From a virus: a stretch of DNA of 28,614 nucleotides. This document shows positions 1,733-28,322 of this stretch, piece after piece. The first letter of the stretch is position 1; each line of letters begins with the position of its first letter. The position numbers were made by a program, and so were the translations under genes. The notes under the pieces are model-generated. The model worked only from the letters and a program-made list of their open reading frames with translations. It searched no databases and had not been told where the DNA came from. The stretch is from the IMG/VR virus record IMGVR_UViG_3300022871_000990, positions 1 to 28,614 of that record. One strand, given 5' to 3'.

Positions 1733-3336
1733 AAACAGTATCCCTAATTGGCAATAACTTCAAGATCACCTTCCCATACGATCCTGCCACTGTTGCACAG
1801 GTGCGGTGTCTTCCTCAAGGACGCCGCTGGGATCCAGTAACGCATGCTTGGTGGTGTCCTCCCTCAGTTAATGCATTGACTCAACTCCGAGAATATGGAT
1901 TTGAGGTAGACCAATCTGCGCAGAGATGGGAGCAGGAATTCTACAAGCCAGCCAAGCCTAACACAGTAGCAGCAGTAACAAATATTCCCGGCCTGAAAGG
2001 AAAGCTATATCCGTTCCAGGCAGAGGGAGTAGGGTTCATCGAGAGCCGGGGAGGACGAGCCTTGCTGGGTGATGAGATGGGGCTGGGTAAAACCATTCAA
2101 GCTCTGGCATGGCTCCAGAACAATCCAAACGCATTACCAGCGGTAGTTGTCTGCCCAGCCAGCTTGAAAGGCATGTGGGAAACCGAGTGCAAGAAGTGGA
2201 CTATGTTCACACCTGTCCTGCTCCACGGAATGGTTCCGTTCCTATTGCACTCAGCTAGCCAAAAAAATATCATATATATTATCAATTATGATATCCTATC
2301 CGGATGGCTACCGGCATTGGCACTTTGCAAAACGGTGATTCTGGATGAAGTGCATTATTGCAAGTCAGCCAAGACTAAACGGACCAAGGCAGTCAAACGG
2401 TTCTGTAAAAATAAATCCCACGTGATTGCCCTGTCTGGCACACCGATTGTAAACCGCCCGTCTGAATTCTTTATAGCATTAAACATCCTTGCTCCTGCCA
2501 CGTTCCCGAAGTGGTGGGATTTTGCCCAACGCTATTGTGACGCCAAGCACAATGGATTTGGCTGGGACACGAGTGGTGCAAGTAACGTTGAAGAATTACA
2601 TACCAGAGCTGAGACAGTTATGCTCCGGCGATTGAAGGCTGATGTACTAAAAGACTTACCTGAGAAGCAACGATCAGTCGTGCCCTTATCCCTGAATGGC
2701 AAGCAAGCCGTTTACGATGCCGTACTGGCTCATGTGCTGGGTGCGTGGCGAAATGAGGAGGAGAAGCCCGACCCACTCCGAGACATTACCCAGATCAGCC
2801 ATTTGCGACAGGCGGTGATGGATGCCAAGTTCGATGCGTGCGTGGAGTGGATAAATTGCTTCGTTGAAACTGGCAAAAAACTTGTGATCTTTGACATTTT
2901 TCATAAAACAACAGATAGATTGATGGAACGATATAATAAAATTGCTGTTGCATTAGATGGCCGTGTTGACTCTCGGCTACGGTCAAAAGTAATAGATAAA
3001 TTCCAGAATGACCCATCAGTTCAAATACTAATTGGAAATATACAAGTCGCTGGTATTGGATTTACACTCACAGCGGCGAGCGATGTTGTCTTTCTCGAAT
3101 TGCCCTGGACGCCAGCAGAGGTTGATCAAAGTTCCGACCGCGTTCATCGTATTGGTCAACGTAATGCTGTTACCATTTATTTTCTAATTGCACCAAACAC
3201 GATGGAGGAAGATATCCTGACCCTACTCGACGAGAAAAGAAAAGTACTTAATGCAGTTCTCGATGGAAAAATAACAGGGGAAGAAATGAGCATTTACCCA
3301 GAACTACTTCGACGACTTAAAAATAAACGAAAATAA
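1729..3336 (+). CDS. SNF2-family DNA helicase/annealing ATPase, SMARCAL1-like
   Basis: A 535-residue superfamily 2 ATPase. Residues about 18-45 (YDP..VAQVRCLPQGRRWDP...WWCP) resemble the HARP-type motif found before the ATPase in SMARCAL1 proteins. Motif I is GDEMGLGKT (114-122), the DEAH-box position is DEVH, motif III is SGTP, and the C-terminal lobe ends with QSSDRVHRIGQ (motif VI). Phage relatives are thought to remodel stalled forks or reanneal DNA, and are usually found near replication genes. The length is near the family minimum, with both RecA lobes intact. The start overlaps the preceding stop as ATGA. Confidence 0.88.
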   Translation: MKTVSLIGNNFKITFPYDPATVAQVRCLPQGRRWDPVTHAWWCPPSVNALTQLREYGFEVDQSAQRWEQEFYKPAKPNTVAAVTNIPGLKGKLYPFQAEGVGFIESRGGRALLGDEMGLGKTIQALAWLQNNPNALPAVVVCPASLKGMWETECKKWTMFTPVLLHGMVPFLLHSASQKNIIYIINYDILSGWLPALALCKTVILDEVHYCKSAKTKRTKAVKRFCKNKSHVIALSGTPIVNRPSEFFIALNILAPATFPKWWDFAQRYCDAKHNGFGWDTSGASNVEELHTRAETVMLRRLKADVLKDLPEKQRSVVPLSLNGKQAVYDAVLAHVLGAWRNEEEKPDPLRDITQISHLRQAVMDAKFDACVEWINCFVETGKKLVIFDIFHKTTDRLMERYNKIAVALDGRVDSRLRSKVIDKFQNDPSVQILIGNIQVAGIGFTLTAASDVVFLELPWTPAEVDQSSDRVHRIGQRNAVTIYFLIAPNTMEEDILTLLDEKRKVLNAVLDGKITGEEMSIYPELLRRLKNKRK

Positions 3337-3371: not shown

Positions 3372-3461
3372 AAGCAGGAATAGGTTGATCACCGAAAAGG
3401 ACGATCCCTTAGTCGTCCCTGTCCTGCTTCTCAAAGCTAAGGCAACAGTAAGGAGTTGCAA
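3372..3461 (+). ncRNA. Structured 5' leader RNA of homing endonuclease (copy 1)
   Basis: Three helices can be drawn. P1 is AAGCAGGA (3372-3379) with TCCTGCTT (3422-3429). P2, nested inside it, is GGACGA (3399-3404) with TCGTCC (3413-3418) and an 8-base loop. P3 is GCAAC (3442-3446) with GTTGC (3455-3459) and an 8-base loop holding the AGGA of the ribosome binding site. The ATG follows at 3462. The same architecture with compensatory changes precedes the genes at 8210 and 19594. Conserved unpaired blocks are AATAGG after P1 and CGAAAAG before P2. It is likely a cis-acting control element; its ligand or partner is unknown. Confidence 0.65.
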
Positions 3462-4106
3462 ATGAGGACTCGTAAAATACCCCCAAGATGCGGATGCGGA
3501 TGTGGCCAACACGTATTAATAATTCGACTCAAGTATGAAGTACGATTCAATAAATATCTGCCAGGGCACAGTCACGCCAATAAGGGTATACCAAAATCAC
3601 CGGAGCACATCGCTAAACTAATTCTCTCCCACACAGGTTATCGAGACTCTCCAGAAACAAAGGCAAGAAAAAGCCTTGCAGCAACAGGCAGAAAACAATC
3701 CGCGGAAGAAAGGAGAAAGAAAAGCAAAGCACGCATAGGCCGATTCCGCGGAGAAAAAGCAAATGGTTGGCGGGGCGGGATTAGTTCGCTTCCTTATAGC
3801 AAAGAGTGGACGCCCTGGTTAAAACAGGAAATCCGCCAAAGGGACCGCCATCATTGTCAAAACCCATTCTGTATGAATCTCTCTAACATTCTTAATGTGC
3901 ACCACATAGACTACGATAAAGAAAACAACAACAAAGGAAATCTAATAACATTATGCACGAGATGTCACTCAAAAACATCAACTGGTAATAGAGAATATTG
4001 GAAAAAGTATTATCAAGCAATACAGTGTATAAATTCTGGAGGAGACGAAACAGAAATACTCAAACAAAGAATAATATACCGCATCAGAAATAAACGCCTT
4101 AAATGA
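3462..4106 (+). CDS. HNH homing endonuclease with NUMOD3-like repeats
   Basis: A 214-residue free-standing endonuclease. The HNH core is at about residues 125-175: a CQNPFC knuckle, the catalytic LNVHHIDYDKENNNKGNLI, and CTRCH as the second zinc knuckle. The N-terminus has CGCGCG, and residues about 40-100 hold short repeats of the type 'SPEHIAKL', 'SPETKARKSL' and 'SAEERRKKSK', the NUMOD3 DNA-binding modules typical of phage homing enzymes. ATG 3462 is chosen because GGAG lies seven bases upstream; an in-frame TTG at 3456 overlaps that site. It has its own promoter and leader and sits between unrelated genes, as expected of a mobile intergenic endonuclease. Confidence 0.85.
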   Translation: MRTRKIPPRCGCGCGQHVLIIRLKYEVRFNKYLPGHSHANKGIPKSPEHIAKLILSHTGYRDSPETKARKSLAATGRKQSAEERRKKSKARIGRFRGEKANGWRGGISSLPYSKEWTPWLKQEIRQRDRHHCQNPFCMNLSNILNVHHIDYDKENNNKGNLITLCTRCHSKTSTGNREYWKKYYQAIQCINSGGDETEILKQRIIYRIRNKRLK

Positions 4107-6686: not shown

Positions 6687-8065
6687 TTAAAATTAAGCGA
6701 CAGAACGTGGATGGCGGTGCAGAACGGAAACTACTTATCGGGATGATTGTCAGCGATAAGTTTATCAAGCAAGCAATGCCATTTTATGATCCCGACTTGA
6801 TTGAGCAGAAATATGCTCGGACTGTTGCGGAATGGTGTGCCCATTATTATCAGCGGTATGAGAAAGCTCCCGGTCTTCATATCAAAGACATTTTTGACAG
6901 TCATGCTGACAAGATGGAACCGACAGAACGGGATTTGGTATCGGATTTGTTGGAGAGTCTTTCTACTGAATACGAACGAGCAGATCAGATGAACACTCCC
7001 TACCTGCTCGATCAGGCAGAAGCATATTTTAAAACTAGAAGCCTAAACCAGTTATTCTCAGAAAGTAAAGGTTTGCTGCTGGAAGGAGACGTGGCTGGAG
7101 CAGAAGCGGAATTGAGTAATTATAAGAGAGTGGGAAGATCGTCATCACTGGGATCCAATCCATTCAAAGATCCTGATGGAATTATGCGAGCATTCGAGCA
7201 GGCTGAGAAACCATTATTTGCCCTACCAGGCAAACTGGGATACATGCTGAACGAAGAATTTGGTCGCGATAAGTTTCTGGCATTCATGGGTCCAGAGAAG
7301 CGTGGCAAGACGTGGTGGCTGAACGAGCTGGCTATCCGAGCGGCGAAGGCCAGATGCAACGTGGCTTTATTTGGAATTGGGGACATGAGCTTGGAGCAAA
7401 CCATAATCCGGCTCGTTATTCAATTGGCAGGAAGAAGCAACAGAGAAAGATATTGTGGGGCGCATGAGTGTCCTTTTCCTAATGCAGACGGAACTGGGAG
7501 TGACTACAGAACTGTTCCAGCTGTTAAACCTCTGACGTGGCGGGAGGCGTGGCGTATAGGGCAGAGATTTCTTGGCAGGATGAAAGGCAAGGACTTTAAA
7601 TTATCCGTCCATCCCAGTGACCAATTGACTGTCACCGGATTGAAAGTCATTCTTGATAATTGGGAAACGTTTGACAACTTTATTCCTGATGTGGTCATCA
7701 TTGATTACGCTGACAATCTTGCTCCAGAAAATAGACGAGAAGAGTTCCGACACCAGCAGAACCAGATATGGAAACTATTAAGAGGATTATCGCAGGAACG
7801 ACATTGCTTTGTAGCTACGGCGACACAAGCCAATGCAGGATCTTATGATCAGACGACTTTAACAATGAAGCATTTCAGTGAGGACAAAAGAAAGTATGCC
7901 CACGTCACTGCGATGGTAGGACTGAACCAAACTCACGAAGAGAAGCGTGCCCGGCTGATGCGATTGAACATGCTGGTGCAAAGGGAGGGTGAGTTCTACG
8001 CAGAAGATTCGGTTACTGTAGCACATGATTTATGGAGGGGGAGACCGTTATTGTTTAGCTTCTAA
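6683..8065 (+). CDS. Replicative DNA helicase, DnaB-like
   Basis: A 460-residue RecA-fold helicase. The N-terminal 150 residues are helical, as in the DnaB N-domain. Walker A is GPEKRGKT (203-210), Walker B is VVIIDYADNL near residue 338, and ATATQANAG followed by a conserved Gln/Arg region fits DnaB motif H3. The central lobe carries an insertion with CGAHECPFPNADGTG. It is translationally coupled to the initiator-like gene and lies two genes downstream of the primase, the classic priming-helicase module. The usual 'SxGKT' is here 'KRGKT', a variant seen in phage helicases. Confidence 0.85.
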   Translation: MIKIKRQNVDGGAERKLLIGMIVSDKFIKQAMPFYDPDLIEQKYARTVAEWCAHYYQRYEKAPGLHIKDIFDSHADKMEPTERDLVSDLLESLSTEYERADQMNTPYLLDQAEAYFKTRSLNQLFSESKGLLLEGDVAGAEAELSNYKRVGRSSSLGSNPFKDPDGIMRAFEQAEKPLFALPGKLGYMLNEEFGRDKFLAFMGPEKRGKTWWLNELAIRAAKARCNVALFGIGDMSLEQTIIRLVIQLAGRSNRERYCGAHECPFPNADGTGSDYRTVPAVKPLTWREAWRIGQRFLGRMKGKDFKLSVHPSDQLTVTGLKVILDNWETFDNFIPDVVIIDYADNLAPENRREEFRHQQNQIWKLLRGLSQERHCFVATATQANAGSYDQTTLTMKHFSEDKRKYAHVTAMVGLNQTHEEKRARLMRLNMLVQREGEFYAEDSVTVAHDLWRGRPLLFSF

Positions 8066-8074
8066 TAATAAAGC

Positions 8075-8103
8075 TTTACCTCTGAAATGAAATCACCTAT
8101 ACT
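8075..8103 (+). promoter_or_regulatory. Promoter of GIY-YIG endonuclease gene 1
   Basis: TTTACC (8075-8080), a 17-base spacer, TATACT (8098-8103). The spacer contains GAAATGAAA, also present in the spacer of the promoter at 3340. Confidence 0.5.
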
Positions 8104-8108
8104 ATATG

Positions 8109-8209
8109 GCAGGAATAGGAAAGGACTAATTAACCTTCCCGAAAAGACCGGCCCCACAACCGGCCCTGTCCTGCTTCTCATAAATTGTGGTAACAATGTG
8201 GAGTTGCAA
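8109..8209 (+). ncRNA. Structured 5' leader RNA of homing endonuclease (copy 2)
   Basis: Same architecture as the leader at 3372. P1 is GCAGGA (8109-8114) with TCCTGC (8169-8174). P2 is CCGG (8148-8151) with CCGG (8160-8163) and an 8-base loop. P3 is GTAAC (8190-8194) with GTTGC (8203-8207) and an 8-base loop that holds GTGGA. ATG follows at 8210. P2 has a wholly different sequence from copy 1 but keeps the pairing and loop size; P3 has a U-G in place of C-G. Confidence 0.65.
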
Positions 8210-8911
8210 ATGAAGACCAAAATCTATGCCTTGCGGGATGAAGACCGCTGGCTCCGGTATGTGGGGAAAACTGGTAAGCCACTTCCTGTCCGCCTCATTA
8301 TCCATTTACGGGAGGCACAAGCTGGTGTTCGGACACACAAGTGCAATTGGATTCGCTCGATGTTGAGGCATGATTTGATTCCCACCATCACGCTAATTGA
8401 GGAGGTTGAAGGGGGTGGAAATGATGAGGAACGCAAATGGATTAAGTACTTTTATGATCATGGCATTGAACTCGTTAATGGAACTGATGGGGGTGATGGT
8501 GGTAACACAATACTGCGCTTTTCTCCTGAAGAATATGCAGAATTCAGAAAGAAGTGCAGTCATCAAGCGACAGACGAATACCGCAAAAATATGAGTCGAA
8601 TAAAGAAAGGCCACCCGGTATCACAAGAACAAAGACAAAAATTAAGTATAGCAAACAAAGGGCAAATTCCTTGGATGAAGGGGAAGCATCCTGTTCTTTC
8701 TGAAGAACACAAAATGAATATAAGCAAGGCGATGAAAGGAAAACACTGGTTCCTTTCAGAGGAAACAAAAAGAAAAATGAGTATAGCGAAGAAAGGCAAA
8801 CCCTCTTGGCATAAAGGAAAACGGCGTTCTGAAGAAACAAAGAAAAGAATGAGTGCTTCAGCCAGAAAAAGAAAAAAGCAGGCAGGCCGTTGTTATTTTC
8901 ATATTAAATGA
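8210..8911 (+). CDS. GIY-YIG homing endonuclease with NUMOD3 repeats
   Basis: A 233-residue enzyme. The N-terminal GIY-YIG nuclease has KIYALRDEDRWLRYVGKTGK (GIY and YIG elements), an Arg-containing helix (RLIIHLREAQ) and the catalytic Glu in DEERKWIKYF, with the domain ending near GTDGGDGG. Residues about 105-225 hold at least four NUMOD3-type DNA-binding repeats of the form S(Q/E)E..(K/R)xxxSxAxKGK. ATG 8210 has GGAG seven bases upstream; a longer in-frame ATG at 8087 would overlap the promoter and leader. It is probably mobile by itself: own promoter, own leader, inserted between the helicase and the next transcription unit. Confidence 0.87.
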   Translation: MKTKIYALRDEDRWLRYVGKTGKPLPVRLIIHLREAQAGVRTHKCNWIRSMLRHDLIPTITLIEEVEGGGNDEERKWIKYFYDHGIELVNGTDGGDGGNTILRFSPEEYAEFRKKCSHQATDEYRKNMSRIKKGHPVSQEQRQKLSIANKGQIPWMKGKHPVLSEEHKMNISKAMKGKHWFLSEETKRKMSIAKKGKPSWHKGKRRSEETKKRMSASARKRKKQAGRCYFHIK

Positions 8912-8932
8912 ATGACTGGCATTCCGTATAAT
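8904..8932 (+). promoter_or_regulatory. Promoter of the DNA-modification cassette
   Basis: TTAAAT (8904-8909), a 17-base spacer, TATAAT (8927-8932) followed by A. It overlaps the stop codon of the GIY-YIG gene. It matches the promoters at 4099 and 17366 in both the TTAAATGAA and the CCGTATAATA blocks. It would transcribe the four-gene cassette from 8984. Confidence 0.68.
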
Positions 8933-8983
8933 AGATCAAAGACGGAAACGATAGAAGTTCAAAACCAAAGGAGGCCAAAAGCC

Positions 8984-9535
8984 ATGAGCAAGAAACCTGC
9001 GAAGAAAGAAACGACAGCGACCCCGAACCGGGACGCAGCGAACGACATCAACGACGTCCTTAAGCCCGACCCGCTGCTGGATGTCAAGGCCGACGAGGCT
9101 GCGATCAAGACTGAACTTGATGAATTGCTGCCCAGCATCAAAGAGGACGACGACTTGACCCCGGCCACGTGGAAAACGCTGAAAGCGATGGGCTGGAAGA
9201 ACACAACGGAAAAAATAAAAACGAGCACGGCTGCAGGAACAAAAGCCGGTGCCAAATCTTCGGCCGTAAAATCGCCCAAAGCCAAGGCGGTTGCCTCGGT
9301 GAAGAAAACTACCCTGTCTCGCAAGGACGCGGTGTACGCGGTAATCGATGAAAAAGGGGGGACCAAAAAAGGAGTTAACTCAAAAGAACTCGAAATATCG
9401 TCGACGGAACGCATGGTGAAAGCCAATGGCACCGCTGGAACTAGTGCCAGCAACATCTGCAACAACGTGTTGGACGCGCTGGTTCAATATAAAATCATGT
9501 CGCGAGATGAGGACGGCCAATGCCGGTTCGCGTGA
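8984..9535 (+). CDS. Basic linker-type protein with C-terminal winged-helix-like domain
   Basis: A 183-residue protein, first gene of the modification cassette. ATG 8984 has AGGAGG about nine bases upstream; an in-frame ATG at 8912 lies inside the promoter and is rejected. The N-terminus is basic (MSKKPAKKE) and is followed by an acidic segment. Residues about 80-115 are a Lys/Ala/Ser linker of histone H1-like composition. The last 70 residues (LSRKDAVYAVIDEKGG through NICNNVLDALVQYKIMSRDE) look like a small winged helix. No catalytic motif is seen. It may bind DNA for the cassette enzymes, but it could also be an unrelated chromatin-like phage protein. Its 3' end overlaps the methyltransferase start by 16 bases. 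Confidence 0.55.
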   Translation: MSKKPAKKETTATPNRDAANDINDVLKPDPLLDVKADEAAIKTELDELLPSIKEDDDLTPATWKTLKAMGWKNTTEKIKTSTAAGTKAGAKSSAVKSPKAKAVASVKKTTLSRKDAVYAVIDEKGGTKKGVNSKELEISSTERMVKANGTAGTSASNICNNVLDALVQYKIMSRDEDGQCRFA

Positions 9536-10683
9536 TCAATCGTGGAATGAAACAGCAAGGGCTTCCATCTTGGTGGCCCTTGTCTGTTTCCATTCCTTAC
9601 ACAATGGCTGAGGTGAGGAAAGCATCTTCCGCGTGCCTTTTCACCGTTGCCAGTACCTTTTCCGGGTGCGGTGGGTCGTCCACTGGCTATCGTTTGGCAG
9701 GGGGCAAGGTGCTGGCGGTGAATGAATTTGTGCAAGCCGCAAGGGATTCATACTCGGCCAATTATCCCGACGTCACCATTCTCCCGGCGGACATACGCGA
9801 CATCACGGGGAAAGATCTTTGCGAGGCGGCAGGTGTTCGGAAGGGAGAACTTGATATTTTGGATGGATCGCCGCCATGCGCGTCATTTTCTACCGCTGGC
9901 AGTCGGGAAAAAGCATGGGGAAAAAGTAAAAAATACAGCGACACTGAGCAACGATGCGACGATCTGTTTTTCGAGTTTGCTCGCGTACTGCGTGAAGCCC
10001 AGCCCCGTTGTTTCGTTGCTGAAAACGTCAAGGGTCTTACAATAGGAATCGCGAAAAACGTGTTGGGCAATCGTCGACGTGGGTTCGCCGACGATCTGGG
10101 ACTTCCTCCCTCCGTATATTCTGAATTGCAGCAGTGTGGATACATCGTCGCGCACGCGGTGCTGAACGCAGCCGATTACGGAGTTCCGCAGATGCGCCGT
10201 CGTGTTATCTTTATCGGGGTGCGAAAAGATTTAAATATAGCGCCGACGCATCCCTTGCCCACCGTGTCGCGGTATGTTTCTGTTCGCGAGGCCATCGTCG
10301 GGGTGGTTAATAAACCTACCGATTTTTTCCCGCTTCCGACAAAAGGAACGGTAGCGCTGAGACTCCTCTGCGCGTGCAAACCAGGGCACAGCTGTGACGA
10401 ATACCATCCCAAAGGATTTTTTTTCCAATTTAGTCGACTAGAGGGGGATATCCCAAGTCTAACAATTCTTGCAGATGGACCACAATATCATTTCATGTGG
10501 AACGAGGACCGCTATTTGAGCATAGCGGAATGCAAACGAATCTGCGCGTTCCCTGACGATTTCATTTTGACAGGGAATCAAAGACAAAGATGGGAACGGA
10601 TGGGGCGTGCCGTTCCACCGTTGATGATGAAAGCTATCGCGGAACATGTATATAAAACTGTGTTGATGAAAACAAGAACTTGA
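9520..10683 (+). CDS. Cytosine-C5 DNA methyltransferase, predicted carboxymethyltransferase
   Basis: A 387-residue C5 enzyme with all core motifs in order: motif I FSGCGGSSTGY (47-57), motif IV GSPPC with catalytic C120, motif VI ENV (168-170), motif VIII QMRRRVIFIG (224-233), a short target-recognition region (about 237-310), motif IX-like LSIAECKRICAFPDDF, and motif X. In motif X the family-typical GNAVPP is GRAVPP, so the Asn contacting the cofactor site is R363. In an engineered bacterial C5 methyltransferase a basic residue at this position is reported to allow carboxy-SAM as donor. With the CmoA-like gene two positions downstream, transfer of a carboxymethyl group to cytosine is the favoured inference. 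ATG 9520 has AGGA seven bases upstream; 9547 and 9604 are weaker alternatives. Confidence 0.85.
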   Translation: MPVRVINRGMKQQGLPSWWPLSVSIPYTMAEVRKASSACLFTVASTFSGCGGSSTGYRLAGGKVLAVNEFVQAARDSYSANYPDVTILPADIRDITGKDLCEAAGVRKGELDILDGSPPCASFSTAGSREKAWGKSKKYSDTEQRCDDLFFEFARVLREAQPRCFVAENVKGLTIGIAKNVLGNRRRGFADDLGLPPSVYSELQQCGYIVAHAVLNAADYGVPQMRRRVIFIGVRKDLNIAPTHPLPTVSRYVSVREAIVGVVNKPTDFFPLPTKGTVALRLLCACKPGHSCDEYHPKGFFFQFSRLEGDIPSLTILADGPQYHFMWNEDRYLSIAECKRICAFPDDFILTGNQRQRWERMGRAVPPLMMKAIAEHVYKTVLMKTRT

Positions 10684-10702
10684 TGAAACTCAGGAGGGAA
10701 AT

Positions 10703-11956
10703 ATGTCCCGGTTGAATCAAATCGCGTTGGAGCTCAGGGAATTATTGGTGGACCAAATGCGACCCTTCAAAGGAGAACGAGTCGCGGTGTTTCTTTCCAG
10801 CGGGACGGATTCCATGTGCGTCCTGCATGCCTTGCTTGCCGCGAAGGCGAAACCCAGAGCGTATTCTTTTTTTATCGAGGGGGAAGAAAATCGGTTTGAT
10901 CCCGTCGTCGCGAAAAAAACCGCTGATTCCATCGGGATCAATTGGACTCCAATCCCGCTGGCATCTGATCCTACCGCCGCCGCTCGCAAAGCCGTTTTGG
11001 GACTGGGCGTTAAAAGCAAATGCGACGTGGAATGCGGTTGGCCGATGGCGGAAGCTTTGCAAGTCGTGGACGAGGCCGTTGTAGTTTCCGGACATGCCGG
11101 AGACGGCCATTTTGGTTTAACGAAAAAAGTGATGATGCACAAAGATCTTTTCGACGTGGAAAGGGATAGGTGCTTTGAAAATCCCGATTACGCGCAGGTG
11201 CGCACGTTGAAGTGGTTCGCCAAATGCTGTGGAAAATTGCTCTTCACCCCGTGGACCGACCCACGGATCATCCAATTATTGCGTGACCTGTCTTGGCGTG
11301 AGTTGAACCACCCGCGCCAAAAAGAAATTGCTCGCCTTGCCTTTGAAAAAGAATGCACCCTTTATCCCCCGAAACTCCATAGCGACCTGCACGCGGCAGG
11401 GACGGGGATTAAAGAGATGTTTCAGCACATTACCGAAGGGACTCGGTTCACGAACCCCGTTGCTGTTTATCATAGAATCAATTCATTGAGTCTCCCCGTG
11501 TTGGTAGGTCAAGCTCCCAGTAAAACTAGTGACGTGGAAAAACCACTTTCAGCTCGTCCCTTGTCCACCTCGTTGTGCCAATTATTGTCGTGCGATTTAT
11601 TGACGTACCTTTCTTCGTTTGAAAGGATCAATTTGTTGAATGCCTGGCCCGGATCTTCAAAGAAGGGGGATCTATTCCCCGCGCGCCTCGGGGCTGAGCG
11701 GGCGAAAGAATTGATCCCCTATTTTCGGGGACGCGAAGTTATCCTATTGGGAAGGAACGTTGCCAAGGCGTTTGGATTGCGCGACGAGTTCCCTCTTTTG
11801 CGGTATCGCCAAGAACACTGTTGCGAGATGGCGGTGGTGCCGCATCCATCGGGGGTAAATCTTTGGTGGAACGATGAAGAAAATAAAAAAGCCGCCGCGA
11901 CCTTTTTGAAATCAGCCATGGAGTCCGTAACGGATAAATTAAGGGGGGGTTTATAA
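10703..11956 (+). CDS. Asparagine-synthetase-like PP-loop ligase fused to a UDG-like domain
   Basis: A 417-residue two-domain protein. Residues 1-245 resemble the ATP-pyrophosphatase domain of asparagine synthetase B: PP-loop FLSSGTDS (30-37), then VVVSGHAGDGHFG (126-138) aligning with AsnB SGEGADELFG, and FTPWTDPRIIQLLRDL (181-196) aligning with 'SPFLDxRLVEFA'. The N-terminal glutaminase domain is absent. Residues about 265-410 look like a uracil-DNA-glycosylase fold: LVGQAPSK (267-274) in the place of GEAPG, VILLGRNVAKAF (346-357), and VVPHPSG (378-384) in the place of the HPS motif. The classic catalytic Asp is not evident, so base binding or flipping is more likely than excision. Inferred role: ATP-dependent amidation of a carboxylated base in DNA. 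AGGAGG precedes the ATG. Confidence 0.72.
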   Translation: MSRLNQIALELRELLVDQMRPFKGERVAVFLSSGTDSMCVLHALLAAKAKPRAYSFFIEGEENRFDPVVAKKTADSIGINWTPIPLASDPTAAARKAVLGLGVKSKCDVECGWPMAEALQVVDEAVVVSGHAGDGHFGLTKKVMMHKDLFDVERDRCFENPDYAQVRTLKWFAKCCGKLLFTPWTDPRIIQLLRDLSWRELNHPRQKEIARLAFEKECTLYPPKLHSDLHAAGTGIKEMFQHITEGTRFTNPVAVYHRINSLSLPVLVGQAPSKTSDVEKPLSARPLSTSLCQLLSCDLLTYLSSFERINLLNAWPGSSKKGDLFPARLGAERAKELIPYFRGREVILLGRNVAKAFGLRDEFPLLRYRQEHCCEMAVVPHPSGVNLWWNDEENKKAAATFLKSAMESVTDKLRGGL

Positions 11957-12708
11957 TGAAAGAAAAAAATAAGAATAAAGACAAGCTGGGAACGTACACG
12001 AACGGCAAGTGGAAGTTCGATGACAAAGTCACAGCATGTTTTGACAACATGTTGGAACGGTCGATTCCTCAATATAAATTGATGCGAGAATTAACCTTCC
12101 GCGTCGGAAGGCGTTTCGCGACTCTTGGAACTGCCGTTGTGGATCTCGGATGCAGTCGCGGCGGTGCTCTTGCAGAGTTTGTGGATGCCAAACGTCCCGA
12201 GGACCAGACGACGTTCATAGGAGTTGAAATTTCAGAACCAATGGCCCTCGCCGCTACCGAACGGTTTGAAAATCGCGACGACGTGGTGATACACCAAATA
12301 GATCTTCGCGAAACGTATCCTCCCGTAGTCACGCGGGACGGGATCTCGTGTGGGTCGTCCCTCACGCTCGCCGTGCTGGTCCTCCAGTTCATTCCCATCG
12401 AACACCGCCATAGGATTATTAAAAAAATATACCAGCAAACAATTTCCGGCGGGGCGTTGATCCTCGTAGAAAAAGTCCTCGGGAACACGGATGAATTGAA
12501 CGCCATGATGGTTCGCGAGTACTATGAGATCAAACGGATGAACGGATATACCGACGACCAAATCGAACGGAAGCGATTGTCCTTGGAAGGAGTTCTGGTC
12601 CCGATCACGGCGCGTTGGAACGAGGACATACTTCGAGAAAGCGGGTTCAGGCAGGTAGATTGTTTCTGGCGCTCGTTGAATTTCGCGGGATGGATCGCTA
12701 TTAAATAA
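11956..12708 (+). CDS. cmoA-like: Carboxy-SAM synthase, CmoA homologue
   Basis: A 250-residue Rossmann SAM enzyme. It aligns along its length with E. coli CmoA as I recall that sequence: [20 protein letters not shown] against [30 protein letters not shown] (61-70, motif I), [16 protein letters not shown] (158-173), and [20 protein letters not shown] (194-213) against [20 protein letters not shown]. R207 matches E. coli R199, the residue that binds the carboxylate of carboxy-SAM, and Y198 of NGY is kept. CmoA makes carboxy-SAM from SAM and prephenate; in bacteria CmoB uses it on tRNA U34. No CmoB-like gene is seen here, but a DNA methyltransferase is. Its start overlaps the ligase stop (TAATG), so the two are coupled. 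Confidence 0.85.
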   Translation: [250 protein letters not shown]

Positions 12709-12727
12709 ATAATTAAGGAGGTGTTTT

Positions 12728-13741
12728 ATGATTATCAACACAGATCAATTCAAACAGATTTTGGAAACAGTAACTCTTGTCAGGAATATTTCTGGAAAAA
12801 AAGAAAATAGTGGATGCACCGATAATTTACTTTTCAAAGAAAAGCACGTCTTCAGTTATAACGGTGAAGTCGTGGTGTGTTGCCCAACCCCGTTTCCAAC
12901 ATCGTTAGAAGGAATCGTTCCAACAGAAGCATTGATGTCGTTCATACGCAAGGTCAATGACAAAACTATGTCCGTCGAAATGACTGAAGATTTATTGGTG
13001 TTCCGGGGCGGGAAATTCAAAGCCGGCATTTTATTAGAATCCACGGGGCAGTTTCCAAAAAATATCACCACGCTTGTCGACGAAGTTGAATGGACGAAAT
13101 TACCAACCAAATTTGGGGAAGCATTGGACATCGTTTCTGAGAGCGCAGCCACCACACCTGGAACGGTTTTGTCTTTTATTCAAGTGGCCGATGAATCCAT
13201 CACGGCATGCAATAATTTTGAGGTAACTTCTTTTTCAATGAAAGGTCTGAAAAACCAAATTCTTATTCCGGCAACAGCAGTAAAAAATATCGTCCGGTTC
13301 TCTCCCGACAGTATAGGATTTTCTGACAAGTGGATATTTTTTTCAAATCCCAATGGATCCCACCTATCGTGCCGTGCCGGGACTGGAAAATACCCTGATG
13401 TGTCAAAATTACTATCTAACCGAGGGAAGCAAATTGAATTTCCAGAAACAGTGGACGACGTGCTTGCTCGTGCCGATGTGTTTTCCACGATGTCAGGGGA
13501 TGCCACCGATAAAGAAGTGAAGTTCATCGTGGCGGATAAAAAATTTATAATACGTTGTCATGGAAAACAAGGCTGGTTTGAAGAAATTATTCCGTCAACG
13601 GTGGAAAAATCCTTTTCATTCTCCATCAATCCTGAGCATTTATTGCGTGTGATTGAATATGGTAAAAAAATTGAATTAACCGAGACCTCGATTATGTTTC
13701 GAGATTCCAATTTCATCCACTCCGTCTCGATAGAAAAATAA
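12728..13741 (+). CDS. Sliding-clamp-like protein (DnaN/PCNA fold)
   Basis: A 337-residue protein with DnaN-like organisation: a short N-terminal helix (TDQFKQILETVTLVRN), alternating strands with a repeated pattern (VPTEALMSFIRKVND, IPATAVKNIVRF), and a C-terminal FSINPEHLLRVIEYG resembling the third-domain 'xNPxYLLDAL' of bacterial beta clamps. The length is slightly below that of bacterial DnaN (about 366). A strong AAGGAGG precedes the ATG. Its position before the polymerase genes and near a clamp loader ATPase supports the call. Sequence similarity is weak, so a T4 gp45-like clamp or another beta-rich protein remains possible. Confidence 0.68.
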   Translation: MIINTDQFKQILETVTLVRNISGKKENSGCTDNLLFKEKHVFSYNGEVVVCCPTPFPTSLEGIVPTEALMSFIRKVNDKTMSVEMTEDLLVFRGGKFKAGILLESTGQFPKNITTLVDEVEWTKLPTKFGEALDIVSESAATTPGTVLSFIQVADESITACNNFEVTSFSMKGLKNQILIPATAVKNIVRFSPDSIGFSDKWIFFSNPNGSHLSCRAGTGKYPDVSKLLSNRGKQIEFPETVDDVLARADVFSTMSGDATDKEVKFIVADKKFIIRCHGKQGWFEEIIPSTVEKSFSFSINPEHLLRVIEYGKKIELTETSIMFRDSNFIHSVSIEK

Positions 13742-13742
13742 A

Positions 13743-14909
13743 ATGAACCCCGGGTTTTTTAAACAGAGTGTTACTTTTGCGGAAAAATGCGGTGTGGCTT
13801 GCACGCTTGATCGCGACTGCCGCTCTCCCAAGATGCCGGTCACCGGTGAAGGGCGAATGAGGATCCTCATCATTGCTGAAGCACCCGGTGAGCAGGAGGA
13901 CAGGCAGAATACGCAATTCATCGGCCCAGCCGGACAACTCCTTCGCAAGATTCTAGCCGAGCATGGAGTTGACCTTGACCGTGACTGCCGCAAGACAAAT
14001 GCTGTGAGATGCCGACCGCCTGAAAATCGCCGTCCTACGCGTCAAGAGATCGAGGCCTGCCAACAGCACGTCTGGGATGAGATCGCCCGTTCTAGGCCTA
14101 TCCTGACGCTTTTATTGGGGCAAATAGCGGTGGAATCCTTCCTGCTAGGCCGAATAACCAAAATAGGCCAGATCGGACGGTGGCGGGGCATGGCAATTCC
14201 AGACCAAAAAGCCGGGTGCTGGATCTGCCCGACATTCCATCCAAGCTATATTCTTCGTAGCCAGGAAGGAAGAATAATCAGGGGCAAGGCCAAACCAATT
14301 CTACCCACCGAGGAATTGATATTCAGGATGGATTTAGAACAGGCATTGACACTATTGGATAAACCATTTCCGGTCGCTCCTCCTCCTCAAGTAATGTGTG
14401 AGTGGCACTGGAGCACAAAACCCGGTGATACGGTCGCCATCGACTACGAAACTACCGGCCTGAAGCCCTACCGCAAAGGACATCGAATTGTGTCGGCTGG
14501 GATCAGCAATGGTGAATGGGCTTGGGCAGGTGAAATGACACCAAAGTTTGCCCGAAAATGGAAGCTATTGTTGGCCGATCAAAATATTAAAAAGATCGCC
14601 CACAACATGAAGTTCGAGCATCAGTGGGCTGCTCATTGTCTTGATGTGGAAACGCAAGGTTGGTTATGGGACACGATGCTTGCCTCACACATGGTTGATA
14701 ATCGCAAACTTTATTGTAAACTAAAGCACCAAGCGTATATCAACTTTGGTGTACCCGACTGGAGTGATGGCATAGATTTTGAGAACGATGATGACGACTT
14801 CGCTATCCATCCCACCGTGGTTACTGATAAGTTGCTGAGTTACAATGCTCTTGATGCTTTCTGGTGTTACAAATTATATGAGAAACAAATGGAGAAGTTC
14901 AAAAAATGA
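13743..14909 (+). CDS. Family 4 uracil-DNA glycosylase fused to 3'-5' exonuclease
   Basis: A 388-residue fusion. Residues 1-205 are a Fe-S uracil glycosylase of family 4: IAEAPGEQED (45-54), FIGPAGQLL (59-67) and FHPSYIL (165-171). C16, C20, C90 and C106 are placed like the cluster ligands; C90-C106 has the usual 15-residue gap. Residues about 225-388 are the proofreading domain of a family A polymerase: Exo I DYETTG (234-239), Exo II HNMKFE (287-292), Exo III YNALD (367-371). The polymerase domain is encoded by the next gene, overlapping by four bases. Likely function: uracil removal tied to proofreading at the fork. There is no clear ribosome binding site; the start is kept because later starts lose the N-terminal cysteines. 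Confidence 0.85.
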   Translation: MNPGFFKQSVTFAEKCGVACTLDRDCRSPKMPVTGEGRMRILIIAEAPGEQEDRQNTQFIGPAGQLLRKILAEHGVDLDRDCRKTNAVRCRPPENRRPTRQEIEACQQHVWDEIARSRPILTLLLGQIAVESFLLGRITKIGQIGRWRGMAIPDQKAGCWICPTFHPSYILRSQEGRIIRGKAKPILPTEELIFRMDLEQALTLLDKPFPVAPPPQVMCEWHWSTKPGDTVAIDYETTGLKPYRKGHRIVSAGISNGEWAWAGEMTPKFARKWKLLLADQNIKKIAHNMKFEHQWAAHCLDVETQGWLWDTMLASHMVDNRKLYCKLKHQAYINFGVPDWSDGIDFENDDDDFAIHPTVVTDKLLSYNALDAFWCYKLYEKQMEKFKK

Positions 14910-16261
14910 CTCCATTGTCCATGGACGGTTATAAACTCCTGCACGATAGTGCTTTGGTTTTTGCAGACATCGAGGCCACCGGAATCCGTATGGATGTCAA
15001 ATATCTCCATGAACAGGACATAGCTGTTGGAAATGACATTCTTGGTATAGAACGTCAACTTTGGAAGACGAGTGAGGCCAAAGAATGGAAACTTCGGTTC
15101 AAAGATAAGATCAAGTTCAGTGCCACGGCCCAACTGTCCGAAATGCTTTTTAAGCAATGGAAATACAAGCCCACCAAAACCACTCGGAAGGGTCGGGCAT
15201 CTGTCGATGATGAAGTGCTTCGTAAGATCAACAGTCCATTCACCCGACTCATTTTACAGCATCGAAAGTTGAGCACAGTAAGAAACACGTTCCTTTCCGG
15301 TTTGTTGGAGAATCAATTAAATGGGTTCCTACACCCATCTTTCAACTTGCATACGGTACTGAGTTATAGAGGGAGTTGTCATGGTCCAAACTTTCAAAAT
15401 CAACCCGTGCGTGATCCTGTTCAAGGAGAGATTGTCCGGAAGGCGTTCCTTCCCCTCATTCCAGAGCACCAGTTTGGGGAGATTGACTATAAAGGAAACG
15501 AGGTTGTCAGCAACGCTTGCTATAATCATGACCCAAACCTGGTGGCTTACATCAAGGATCCAACTAAGGACATGCATGAAGATTCCGCCAAGAACTGTTT
15601 CATCCTCCAACCAAAACAGATTGGGGAGATGATCCGATACGTCGGGAAGAACGGATTTACCTTCCCGGAATTCTACGGTAGCTATTTTATCAACATTGCT
15701 CCGGCTATGTGGTGGGCGATTACGGAGCATGGACTTACAACGGAGGATGGAATTCCTTTGTACCTCCATTTGAGGAATGAAGGAATTTCTAATGAGGAGG
15801 AATTTATAGACCACATCCAACAAGTGGAGCAACATTTTTGGGACGAGCGTTTTCCAACCTTTGCCAAGTGGAAAGTCAAGTGGTATGAAGCGTACCAGAG
15901 GAAAGGGTATTTTGACTTGCTTACCGGTTTCCGGTGTCAAGGTCCCATGCGTAAAAACGAAGTGTGCAACTATCCTGGGCAAGGAACAGCATTTCATTTT
16001 CTATTGTGGGGAATGGTGCGATTACACGAATGGTTAGTCAACAATGAAATGAAAACTCAAATACTCGGTGAAATACATGATTCAATTGTGATATCCTTCC
16101 ACCCGGATGAGACCATGACCGTGTTGCGTAAGGCTCGCAAGATTATGTGTGTGGACATTAGAAAGCACTGGAAATGGATTAACGTCCCGATGAGCATAGA
16201 AGCGGAAGTCGCCCCTGTGGGAAAATCGTGGCAGGAAAAACAACCTATGGAGATATCATGA
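14906..16261 (+). CDS. DNA polymerase I family, polymerase domain only
   Basis: A 451-residue family A polymerase lacking 5' and 3' exonuclease domains. A template-binding segment reads SYRGSCHGPNFQNQP. Motif A is GEIDYKGNEV with catalytic D194, in place of the usual DYSQIE. Motif B is IRYVGKNGFTFPEFYGSY, with K248 and Y257, and an unusual GFTFPEF instead of the NFG turn. Motif C is EIHDS with H391-D392. All catalytic acids are present. The proofreading domain is on the preceding gene, so the holoenzyme is split. The start overlaps the upstream stop and the stop overlaps the next start (ATGA), a tightly coupled unit. Confidence 0.88.
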   Translation: MTPLSMDGYKLLHDSALVFADIEATGIRMDVKYLHEQDIAVGNDILGIERQLWKTSEAKEWKLRFKDKIKFSATAQLSEMLFKQWKYKPTKTTRKGRASVDDEVLRKINSPFTRLILQHRKLSTVRNTFLSGLLENQLNGFLHPSFNLHTVLSYRGSCHGPNFQNQPVRDPVQGEIVRKAFLPLIPEHQFGEIDYKGNEVVSNACYNHDPNLVAYIKDPTKDMHEDSAKNCFILQPKQIGEMIRYVGKNGFTFPEFYGSYFINIAPAMWWAITEHGLTTEDGIPLYLHLRNEGISNEEEFIDHIQQVEQHFWDERFPTFAKWKVKWYEAYQRKGYFDLLTGFRCQGPMRKNEVCNYPGQGTAFHFLLWGMVRLHEWLVNNEMKTQILGEIHDSIVISFHPDETMTVLRKARKIMCVDIRKHWKWINVPMSIEAEVAPVGKSWQEKQPMEIS

Positions 16262-23843: not shown

Positions 23844-24173
23844 GGGCGCGACATGGATTCGACGCTGACAGGTAGCAGAGAGATGCGTGCCGGGGTTGGT
23901 CGGTTGGCCCCGTTATCAAGCCGACTGCATGATACTCGCCTACGAGTACAAAACGGCGGCTTAAAGTCGCCTAGGAACCCGGAGAGGCGCGGAAGTATCC
24001 GGCAGTACGACTCGCACATCCGCATGATGGGGTTTGTCCGTAGGCCGACAGGAAACGGACTGGTGGTAGGTGTCTATCCAGACGCCCCAGTTGCCGGACT
24101 TAAACCGGATATGCGCGTAGAGTCTCCTGTGAACTGACTGCGGACGGGGGTTCGATTCCCCCCGCGTCCACCA
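23844..24173 (+). ncRNA. ssrA: Transfer-messenger RNA (tmRNA)
   Basis: Complete one-piece tmRNA of 330 bases. The acceptor stem GGGCGCG (23844-23850) pairs with CGCGTCC (24163-24169); its third pair is G-U, the alanine identity element. GACATGGATTCGACG follows the 5' strand, as in bacterial tmRNA. The T-arm is GGGGG-TTCGATT-CCCCC (24146-24162), with discriminator A and encoded CCA (24171-24173). Pseudoknot 1 (CGGGG/CCCCG with TCGG/CCGA, near 23891-23925) aligns with E. coli, including CGGTTGGCC. The resume codon is GCC (23938), preceded by ATACTC where E. coli has ATAGTC. The tag reads AYEYKTAA, then TAA (23962-23964) inside a GGCG/CGCC hairpin. It would rescue stalled ribosomes and tag products. 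Confidence 0.93.
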
Positions 24174-27356: not shown

Positions 27357-27577
27357 ACCAACGTGCCGCAGAGTTAGAAGCCGCTGACAAGCGCATGGAC
27401 CCGCACGGCCAGATCATAGACTCCGGCGAGTTGCGGGCGTGGGAGAGGCATTTCGGGCCATGGTGCTATGCAGTCCAGCGGTATTGTAAGAAGAGCAGAG
27501 GGCTGTGTGCGAACAGATGCTGGCAGACGTGGCGGGGATTGAACAATGAAAAACATCGCATCATTTTCGGGTGGTAA
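27338..27577 (+). CDS. Small hypothetical protein
   Basis: A 79-residue protein: an acidic helical N-terminus (IDQRAAELEAADKRMDP), then ELRAWERHFGPWCYAVQRYCKKSRGLCANRCWQ, rich in Trp and Cys. AAGGAG precedes the ATG. It overlaps the upstream gene by 19 bases and the downstream gene by 32. No family recognised. Confidence 0.5.
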   Translation: MYQSQIDQRAAELEAADKRMDPHGQIIDSGELRAWERHFGPWCYAVQRYCKKSRGLCANRCWQTWRGLNNEKHRIIFGW

Positions 27578-28322
27578 AGACAGTACAGCCATGGTCTTGC
27601 GGTTGATCGAGGAAGACTGGCCGCTGGATGAGATCGTATTCTTCGACACCGGGTGGGAGTTTCCGCAGATGCACGAGCACATTGACAGATTTGAGCAGTA
27701 CATCGGGAGGCCGATTACTCGGTTGCATCCTCGAGAGTCATTTGACTATAAAATGTGGATCAAACCCATTGTGCGAAGAAAGAAGTCATGTCCGATGCAC
27801 GGCAAGGTGTACCGCTGCGGCAATGGATGGCCCTCGTTCTTTAGCCGCTGGTGTACCCGTGAGAAGGTTGACGTGATTGACCGATATTGCGGCGACGCTC
27901 TGCAATATGTTGGGATTGCGGCAGATGAGACAAAACGGCTTAAAATGCGCAACTATCCCTTGGTTAAGTGGGGGATGACGGAGGCAGATTGCCTTCAACT
28001 GTGTTTGGATAAGGGGTTTGATTGGGGTGGGCTTTATAACCACTTTGACCGGGTGTCGTGTTTTTGTTGCCCGCTCAAAAGATTAGACGATTGCCGCACA
28101 TTACGAAAGTATTACCCGCCACTGTGGGGCAGAATGATTGAGATGGGCGACAACGTGAGAAGTCTAGAAGGTAGGCGGTTTCACCATGGCAAGACGGTGC
28201 GTGACCTTGAAGAACGATTTGCCCAAGAAGATAAGCAACAATGGTTACGACTGGACAAAATAGCAAGCCGGGACGTGGCGGGGATTGAGGACGTGAAACA
28301 AACAACAATCAAGGAGGAATAA
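27546..28322 (+). CDS. PAPS-reductase-family PP-loop protein
   Basis: A 258-residue adenine-nucleotide alpha-hydrolase-fold protein. The PP-loop is SFSGGKDSTAM (7-17), then FFDTGWEFPQMHEHI, typical of the phage phosphoadenosine phosphosulfate reductase family, and C-terminal CFCCPLKRLDDCRTLRKYYP, a Cys cluster seen in such phage proteins. Other cysteines (CPMHGKVYRCGNG, RWCTREK) may form a metal site. The known family activity is ATP- or PAPS-dependent sulfur chemistry; the phage members are mostly uncharacterised and this one need not be a sulfate reductase. There is no Dnd or other phosphorothioation gene nearby. Confidence 0.75.
   Translation: MKNIASFSGGKDSTAMVLRLIEEDWPLDEIVFFDTGWEFPQMHEHIDRFEQYIGRPITRLHPRESFDYKMWIKPIVRRKKSCPMHGKVYRCGNGWPSFFSRWCTREKVDVIDRYCGDALQYVGIAADETKRLKMRNYPLVKWGMTEADCLQLCLDKGFDWGGLYNHFDRVSCFCCPLKRLDDCRTLRKYYPPLWGRMIEMGDNVRSLEGRRFHHGKTVRDLEERFAQEDKQQWLRLDKIASRDVAGIEDVKQTTIKEE

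Follow-up and report, generated by a model that had tools for sequence, protein, structure and literature searches.

The closest described system is that of Synechococcus phage S-B43, a cyanophage (MN018232). In this phage, CmoA makes carboxy-S-adenosylmethionine (carboxy-SAM) from prephenate and S-adenosylmethionine (SAM), CmoX transfers the carboxymethyl group onto C5 of cytosine in GC motifs by means of Cys98 and Arg350, and glycine is then attached to the 5-carboxymethylcytosine (5cxmC) by the AsnB-like ligase CmoY (Yang et al., PMC12783734). The paper, dated 7 December 2025, includes a crystal structure and lists 5,615 CmoX candidates and 2,251 ligases, with clusters whose amines are unassigned. 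The window analyzed here, i.e., the whole stretch of 28,614 nt from the IMG/VR virus record IMGVR_UViG_3300022871_000990 (positions 1 to 28,614), carries a cmo locus of the same kind. The pathway is already known. The new feature is an amide ligase fused to a domain with a uracil-DNA glycosylase (UDG) fold, the relatives of which are placed beside two other kinds of DNA decoration genes. In a preliminary description of this sequence the domain was named and left uninterpreted; in the present analysis, its fusion and recurrence are judged the part worth pursuing.

Four adjacent genes had been claimed in that description, and four consecutive open reading frames (ORFs) were found on the + strand, with overlaps or with gaps of no more than 19 bases. 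The genes and domains are as follows.

9520-10683, + strand: predicted CmoX-type DNA cytosine C5-carboxymethyltransferase, 387 aa (PF00145, 8yf3, 45.2% identity to the S-B43 gene).
10703-11956, + strand: predicted CmoY-type ATP-dependent amide ligase fused to a UDG-like domain, 417 aa (PF00733, S-B43 CmoY, models).
10703-11476, + strand: AsnB-like ligase domain, residues 1-258 (PP-loop SSGTDS at 32-37, without glutaminase domain, His230).
11480-11932, + strand: UDG-superfamily-like domain, residues about 260-410 (GQAP at 269-272, Asn310, HPSGVN at 381-386).
11956-12708, + strand: predicted CmoA-type carboxy-SAM synthase, 250 aa (phrog_4752, TIGR00740, Arg207).
8912-9535, + strand: basic protein without family match, 207 aa; membership in the cassette is not supported.

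The ORF 9520-10683 belongs to the C5 cytosine methylase family (PF00145, 3.8e-50), as the preliminary description had stated, and its best solved structure was 8yf3, the published CmoX (2e-84). The SPPC catalytic motif is present at S117-C120, with Cys120 as the catalytic residue. A basic residue in motif X had also been reported, and it was identified as Arg363 in MGRAVPP, which aligns with the Arg of GRMVPP in 8yf3, i.e., the position of R350 in SpCmoX, the S-B43 enzyme, and of N304 in HhaI. The SPPC motif and the motif X Arg are the features used to call CmoX, and wild-type SpCmoX accepted carboxy-SAM only (PMC12783734). The Arg form was found in 24 of the 26 CmoX-type genes from 79 other CmoA loci, the exceptions being loci L095 and L097. 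When a motif X expression was run on the 67 CmoX-type genes of other ligase loci, 54 gave R, 12 were unmatched, and one gave K; this sole K-form match (L269) looks spurious. Two C5 enzymes from loci without CmoA (L136 and L139) have the N form, GN[SA]VPP, and not the Arg form. The CmoX seed profile was made without the C5 enzyme of L023, for which the alignment shows no motif X Arg. At L023 (Staphylococcus phage vB-SscS-F1, 4825-5832), cmoA, ligase, and C5 methylase genes are placed in a row, with Gly at the motif X position. At L101 (4500-6140), the motif X sequence ERLGRSVPP occurs two times in a CmoX ORF of 546 aa (residues 116 and 519 onward), as though its C-terminal region had been duplicated N-terminally.

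The product of ORF 11956-12708 was recognized as a CmoA homolog, again as previously described, by phrog_4752 (1.2e-67) and TIGR00740 (1.3e-39). The TIGR00740 score, 136 of 193 bits, is below the curated cut-off, and the proven CmoA of phage S-B43 is likewise under it with 116 bits. Arg207 of the window CmoA corresponds in the alignment to the QKR Arg of Escherichia coli CmoA (Arg199 by our count), which forms a salt bridge to the carboxymethyl group (PMC3663124). Arg199 was rejected as an absolute CmoA marker; a Glu is aligned there in S-B43 CmoA. The preliminary description had further held that carboxy-SAM serves only CmoB in bacteria, a statement contradicted by CmoX of S-B43, which also uses carboxy-SAM (PMC12783734). 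No CmoB had been seen in that description either, for a virus record of 28.6 kb in which no search aimed at CmoB was made.

Co-occurrence of the three genes had been proposed as a check, and it was found. The ligase scan covered the best 80 of 132 relatives, two of them from this virus, and the CmoA scan the best 80 of more than 551, with 79 loci outside this virus; in both, the counts are contigs and were not dereplicated. In the 78 other ligase loci, CmoA was present in 75, a CmoX-type gene in 67, and all three genes in 66. From the CmoA side, a CmoX-type gene was detected in 26 of the 79 loci within the stretch available. It was not seen in the other 53 within the stretches available, many of which are short. 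At two CmoA loci (L036, 4149-6499, and L047, 4648-6240), a 530-aa protein is encoded upstream of cmoA, with a ParB domain (2.7e-6 and 1.5e-5, the latter just below cut-off) and a methyltransferase-like motif recognized by eye. At L079 (3957-8423), genes for an N6/N4 DNA methylase and a Rossmann methyltransferase are found close to cmoA or adjacent to it. The ParB-domain protein and the L079 methylases are candidates for a different carboxy-SAM acceptor.

The C5 enzyme could also be explained as an ordinary SAM-dependent cytosine methyltransferase, next to a CmoA that is an unrelated tRNA-modification gene, with incidental adjacency. Its membership in the C5 methylase family is undisputed, and the CmoA match under the NCBIfam curated cut-off would agree with this explanation. 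However, the proven SpCmoA misses the cut-off as well, the window enzyme combines the motif X Arg with 45% identity to an enzyme restricted to carboxy-SAM (PMC12783734), and all three genes are again found together in 66 of the 78 other ligase loci. Such an explanation is extremely improbable.

Taking the three enzymes together, the virus very probably adds a small acid, and then an amide, to the cytosines of its own DNA. By homology, CmoA would make carboxy-SAM from SAM and prephenate. CmoX would place the carboxymethyl group on cytosine C5 in duplex DNA, carboxy-SAM being chosen via Arg363, as the proven homolog and the conserved residue suggest. The AsnB-like ligase would adenylate the 5-carboxymethyl group and join an amine, which is glycine in S-B43. 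Because this ligase has no glutaminase domain, the amine would come from solution. The order of carboxy-SAM synthesis, C5 carboxymethylation, and ATP-dependent amidation had been predicted in the preliminary description, which allowed that a similar route might have been reported. It is the chemistry shown for the S-B43 homologs (PMC12783734), and it is supported for the window by homology. A categorically new pathway was therefore rejected, as that paper already shows the route. The presence of 5cxmC in the phage DNA is highly likely on these grounds, and an amide is likely formed on it.

The assignment of ORF 10703-11956 as an AsnB-like ligase held. Its PF00733 match (2.8e-5) covers residues 11-138, the N-terminal part only, and the best matches of its model in the PDB were beta-lactam synthetase and asparagine synthetase. 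The PP-loop of the AsnB synthetase fold, SGG-x-DS type, is present as SSGTDS. The identity to S-B43 CmoY is 26% over 234 aa, and SpCmoY has 271 residues versus 417 in the window. The best ligase ORFs of the 78 other loci are of 250-299 aa in 71 loci, 300-349 aa in five, 200-249 aa in one, and 500-549 aa in one; this last ORF (L305, 546 aa) gave no UDG-like match, and the extension at its N-terminus appears to be an artefact of the reading frame. The QLG motif, which was recognized in this analysis and is not one defined by the authors of PMC12783734, is placed close to the C-terminal end of the ligase domain and is changed in the window. Against 12 other glutaminase-free ligases, the best score of the window ligase domain was 2e-31, short of the cluster threshold of 1e-56 in PMC12783734; as the databases differ, this comparison is rough. 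Since His230 replaces a nearly invariant Gln, the amine is perhaps not glycine. In view of the low likeness to SpCmoY, His230, and Ala232, the window ligase may use another amine.

The same changes could mean that the ligase is impaired or does not act on 5cxmC of DNA, so that the final base would be free 5-carboxymethylcytosine. In the alignment, 78 of 79 other ligases have Gln at the position of His230, and all 79 have Gly at that of Ala232. On the other side, the synthetase core is retained, i.e., the PP-loop, Lys106, Glu110, Asn202, Pro204, Gln206, and Lys207. The 417-aa gene is intact in two other contigs of the same virus, and it is placed between cmoX and cmoA. A final base without the amide is thus rather improbable, and amidation of the carboxymethyl group is preferred.

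The UDG-like domain named in the preliminary description was supported by a model and a structure search. In the sequence-based search, PF03167 gave 0.0019 and 18.7 bits, below the cut-off of 24.3 bits; the copy of phage M6 also gave 18.7 bits, and the homolog of L101 was above the cut-off with 39.9 bits. The model of residues 256-417, made with 29 homologous rows, had a pLDDT of 93.3 and a pTM of 0.88. In the model of the full-length ligase, this C-terminal domain is unresolved, as the alignment had no rows for that part, and no domain packing can be taken from it. The best PDB matches of the domain in Foldseek include human TDG with 5-carboxylcytosine, UdgX, and bacterial UDGs. VIA-align gave Z 12.2 and a root-mean-square deviation of 3.3 with 148 residues aligned to 1ui1, the Thermus thermophilus UDG, and Z 12.0 for E. 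coli MUG. The nearest solved chain by sequence profile was an uncharacterized Streptococcus mutans protein (3ikb, 4e-8), and the UDG-like branch therefore has cellular relatives.

Asn310, His381, Ser383, and Gly384 of the domain are invariant in 30 of 30 aligned rows. Family-4 motif A, given as GE[A/G]PG (PMC10359453), is not kept: the window has GQAP, and the second position is Q in 26, E in three, and L in one of the 30 rows. Motif B of UdgX, HPS(S/A)(L/V)(L/V)R, is said to be unchanged from family 4 (PMC10359453). The window has HPS at 381-383 followed by GVN, a signature of the UDG-like family. Glu52 of UdgX is reported to be needed, and E52Q to be compromised in complex formation (PMC10359453). 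In our reading of the aligned motifs, Glu52 is at the position of the motif A Gln. Because of this Gln and the defect of UdgX E52Q, excision by the UDG-like domain is doubtful, though possible.

The domain is absent from SpCmoY, and in a term search the word glycosylase was not found in the main text of PMC12783734. The idea that cmo ligases generally carry it was rejected, as it was fused to none of the ligases from the 78 other loci.

The best explanation of the whole, with a rough probability of 0.7, is a three-step cytosine modification in which the UDG-fold domain is a non-excising module that binds or reads bases. The domain would bind and flip the modified base, or read modified DNA, and keep the ligase on its substrate without excision. 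This role is suggested because the Asn and His of the UDG pocket are kept while the motif A Glu is mostly gone, and because UDG-like genes accompany different modification genes and one is fused here to the enzyme of the last step. Taken separately, the non-excising role is tentative and stands a little short of even odds.

With the same cytosine pathway, the domain could instead be an active glycosylase for repair or quality control, clearing deaminated C5-substituted uracils or unfinished intermediates. Human TDG with 5-carboxylcytosine and family-4 UDGs are among its closest folds, all 30 rows keep the motif B His and have an Asn in the position of the pyrimidine-contact residue, and three rows have the family-4 Glu. 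Excision of modified cytosines by members of the UDG superfamily is also described, for Brig1 and Brig3 (PMC11078745 and PMC13160076). But motif A has Gln in 26 of the 30 rows, the virus already encodes a canonical UDG domain (13743-14909), removal of dense modified bases would harm the own genome of the phage, and a repair role gives no reason for fusion to a ligase. An active glycosylase is unlikely.

The UDG-like proteins were also considered as shields, i.e., inactive glycosylase homologs that sit on modified bases and thereby obstruct Brig-type defence glycosylases of the host. These host enzymes attack alpha-glucosyl-5-hydroxymethylcytosine, 5-hydroxymethylcytosine (5hmC), and modified thymines (PMC11078745 and PMC13160076), and the target chemistries are close to those suggested by the neighbors of the UDG-like genes. 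A stoichiometric shield would need to coat the genome, however, and covalent fusion to a ligase would be unneeded for shielding, which makes this role quite improbable beside that of a base-reading module.

The neighbors of the relatives bear on this base-reading role. ADDT, amino acid:DNA transferase, belongs to thymidine hypermodification, and TAGT is the TET-associated glycosyltransferase. A first scan with the UDG-like domain gave seven loci besides this virus, six with ADDT genes and one with a TAGT gene. The profile of a second scan was made from the window copy, two copies from cmo loci, and one from a TAGT locus, and it gave 34 loci without this virus or repeats. CmoA was found in 10, TAGT in 12, ADDT in two, and any of these markers in 24. 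Retesting of the markers with Pfam confirmed five of five TAGT and two of two ADDT genes. A marker-independent Pfam scan covered 112 of the 129 listed neighbors in the 24 loci without CmoA, the 17 omitted being mostly antisense or small ORFs. Among the families listed, TAGT was the commonest in the first batch (4/68) and tied for first in the second (2/44), and ADDT was found in three. Four pairs of UDG-like and marker genes overlap by four bases (L112, L114, L122, and L126), and the others are at most 3.8 kb apart.

After removal of near-copies at 90% identity or more, 31 UDG-like loci were left. Any marker was present in 22 of 31, versus 4 of 66 DNA-polymerase control loci (one-sided Fisher test, 5e-11), and in 19 of 28 without the three seed loci (1e-9). 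CmoA was in 9 of 31 versus 0 of 64 control loci (1.7e-5), and TAGT in 11 of 31 versus 3 of 64 (1.9e-4). The control of 64 excludes L144 and L145 as seeds, both of which are included in the 4/66; L144 has TAGT. CmoA was likewise found in none of 79 DNA-polymerase and none of 10 canonical-UDG control loci.

Several points weigh against the explanation preferred here. The chemistry assigned to the window enzymes comes entirely from homology, and the ligase could be impaired, to judge from its 26% identity to SpCmoY and from His230 and Ala232. The motif A Glu is retained in 3 of 30 UDG-like rows. A separate UDG-like gene was present in only 1 of the 78 other ligase loci (L262, the contig of L135) and in 2 of 79 CmoA loci; it is optional and rare, and the pathway therefore works without a UDG-like protein. 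None of the three marker families was found in 10 of the 34 UDG-like loci, or 9 of 31 without near-copies, and ADDT alone was not significant (2/31 versus 0/64, p 0.10). The enrichment is biased upward, as three seeds of the scan were cmo-linked and one TAGT-linked. The control loci are shorter, with a median of 11.2 versus 14.4 kb, and control loci of at least 13 kb had a marker in 3 of 24. In a second small control, made of the canonical UDG genes of relatives of the window, TAGT was present in 4 of 10 loci, and a UDG gene near TAGT is therefore unremarkable in this lineage. A TET dioxygenase was not found among nine rescanned neighbors of the UDG genes at TAGT loci, and the 5hmC-derived bases supposed for these loci come from the Pfam family name by itself.

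In a tree of 40 UDG-like rows, cmo labels need eight changes and TAGT labels seven, and the labels interleave. The copies of ADDT loci form one clade (100/100), and the nearest row to the window domain is a TAGT-locus copy with 45% identity. Strong support was obtained at 9 of 36 inner branches only, and the tree is also compatible with cmo copies that arose just once. At L136 and L139, the UDG-like gene is joined with the N-form C5 methylases, without CmoA. A short-motif scan of a cellular genome collection gave one locus, with a weak family match (2e-5) and no marker profile matched. Matches in Rhizobium phages (E 0.03 to 0.6) and Escherichia phage ERS-1 (E 2e-3) were too weak or broken for use. 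The domain family has a UDG fold, is conserved, and recurs beside cmo, TAGT, and thymidine-hypermodification genes. That the family, fused here to the enzyme of the last step, serves at least three chemically unrelated systems and moves between cmo and TAGT loci is a more speculative and rather doubtful suggestion.

Of the gene neighborhood, the first gene of the four was not retained. Its product (8912-9535) is basic (pI 9.4), as had been described, and the rest of that claim, a DNA-binding-like member of the cassette, did not stand. No family of Pfam, PHROG, or NCBIfam was matched, its relatives among the loci searched were solely contigs of the same virus, and nothing connects it with the cassette or with DNA binding. 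A four-gene cassette was rejected for the lack of relatives in the other loci searched. A single promoter for the genes had also been claimed, without support here: four promoter-like sites were found in 8000-13000 versus 4.7 expected from shuffles, and none stands out. The sole site on the + strand (8075-8103) is at the start of the upstream gene, a GIY-YIG/NUMOD3 homing endonuclease gene (8087-8911) directly before the cassette. This gene is a possible vehicle for movement of the cassette.

On the 3' side, the cassette is followed by genes for a polymerase processivity factor (phrog_947), a UDG-exonuclease, and a family A polymerase. In L144, whose polymerase is 71% identical to that of the window, a TAGT gene (2133-3236) has the processivity-factor gene on one side and the UDG-exonuclease gene on the other, whereas the cmo genes of the window are just upstream of the processivity-factor gene; no cmo gene was seen in the 9 kb of L144. 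With one relative compared, related viruses thus seem to differ in the base-decoration genes of this neighborhood.

Other observations were made in the window. Polymerase A is split at 13743-16261, with the UDG domain and 3'-5' exonuclease in one gene and the polymerase domain in the next; in phage PaBG, the three parts are all in one protein (PMC7412058). A complete tmRNA gene with the tag AYEYKTAA is at 23844-24173. An int-alpA RNA (3373-3442, above the Rfam gathering score) is just upstream of an HNH endonuclease gene (3456-4106), and the gene at 27546-28322 has a partial PAPS-reductase domain (PF01507).

The pathway in another virus lineage supports the view, already in print, that phages widely use carboxymethylcytosine as a handle for decorating their DNA, and the altered ligase points to amides besides glycine. 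The UDG-like domain is a testable lead on how base-decorating enzymes gain access to their targets within duplex DNA. The recurrence of one glycosylase fold next to decoration genes of three kinds suggests a shared solution, i.e., to flip the base and not cut it. UDG-like proteins may be a source of modified-base readers, with a possible link to host glycosylases that defend against modified phages.

Among earlier studies, the abstract of Iyer et al. 2013 reportedly predicts DNA modifications derived from modified SAM. The ligase-UDG fusion and the recurrence beside three kinds of decoration genes were not found in the literature searched, taken without supplements; Iyer et al. 2013 or Lee et al. 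2021 may mention the UDG-like gene.

Compared with the known systems, the window and S-B43 have the same three enzyme families in adjacent genes, and both ligases are without a glutaminase domain. The gene order is cmoA-cmoY-cmoX in S-B43 and cmoX-cmoY-cmoA in the window, and the window ligase differs from S-B43 CmoY in the added UDG-like domain and the changed Gln-Leu-Gly motif. CmoA is next to or near an AsnB-like ligase, as in the window, in PaBG and Staphylococcus phage vB-SscS-F1, where a C5 enzyme is also present, and in Erwinia phage pEa_SNUABM_5 and Yersinia phage fHe-Yen9-02, where no C5 enzyme was seen in the stretch read. The ligases of PaBG, vB-SscS-F1, and pEa_SNUABM_5 have 271-293 aa and that of fHe-Yen9-02 is a 341-aa ORF, all without the UDG-like domain.

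In Pseudomonas phages M6 and AN14 and Yuavirus relatives, the UDG-like protein is separate, with 38% identity to the window domain in AN14, and shares the GQAP and H-x-SG-x-N motifs with it. There it is encoded by its own gene in a thymidine-hypermodification cluster, with amino acid:DNA transferase, pyridoxal phosphate enzyme, and radical SAM genes, and not in a cytosine carboxymethylation locus. With family-4 UDG, UdgX, TDG, and MUG, the window domain has in common the fold (Z of about 11 to 12) and the His-Pro-Ser of motif B, whereas window-type domains differ from family-4 UDG in motif A, where 26 of 30 rows have Gln instead of Glu.

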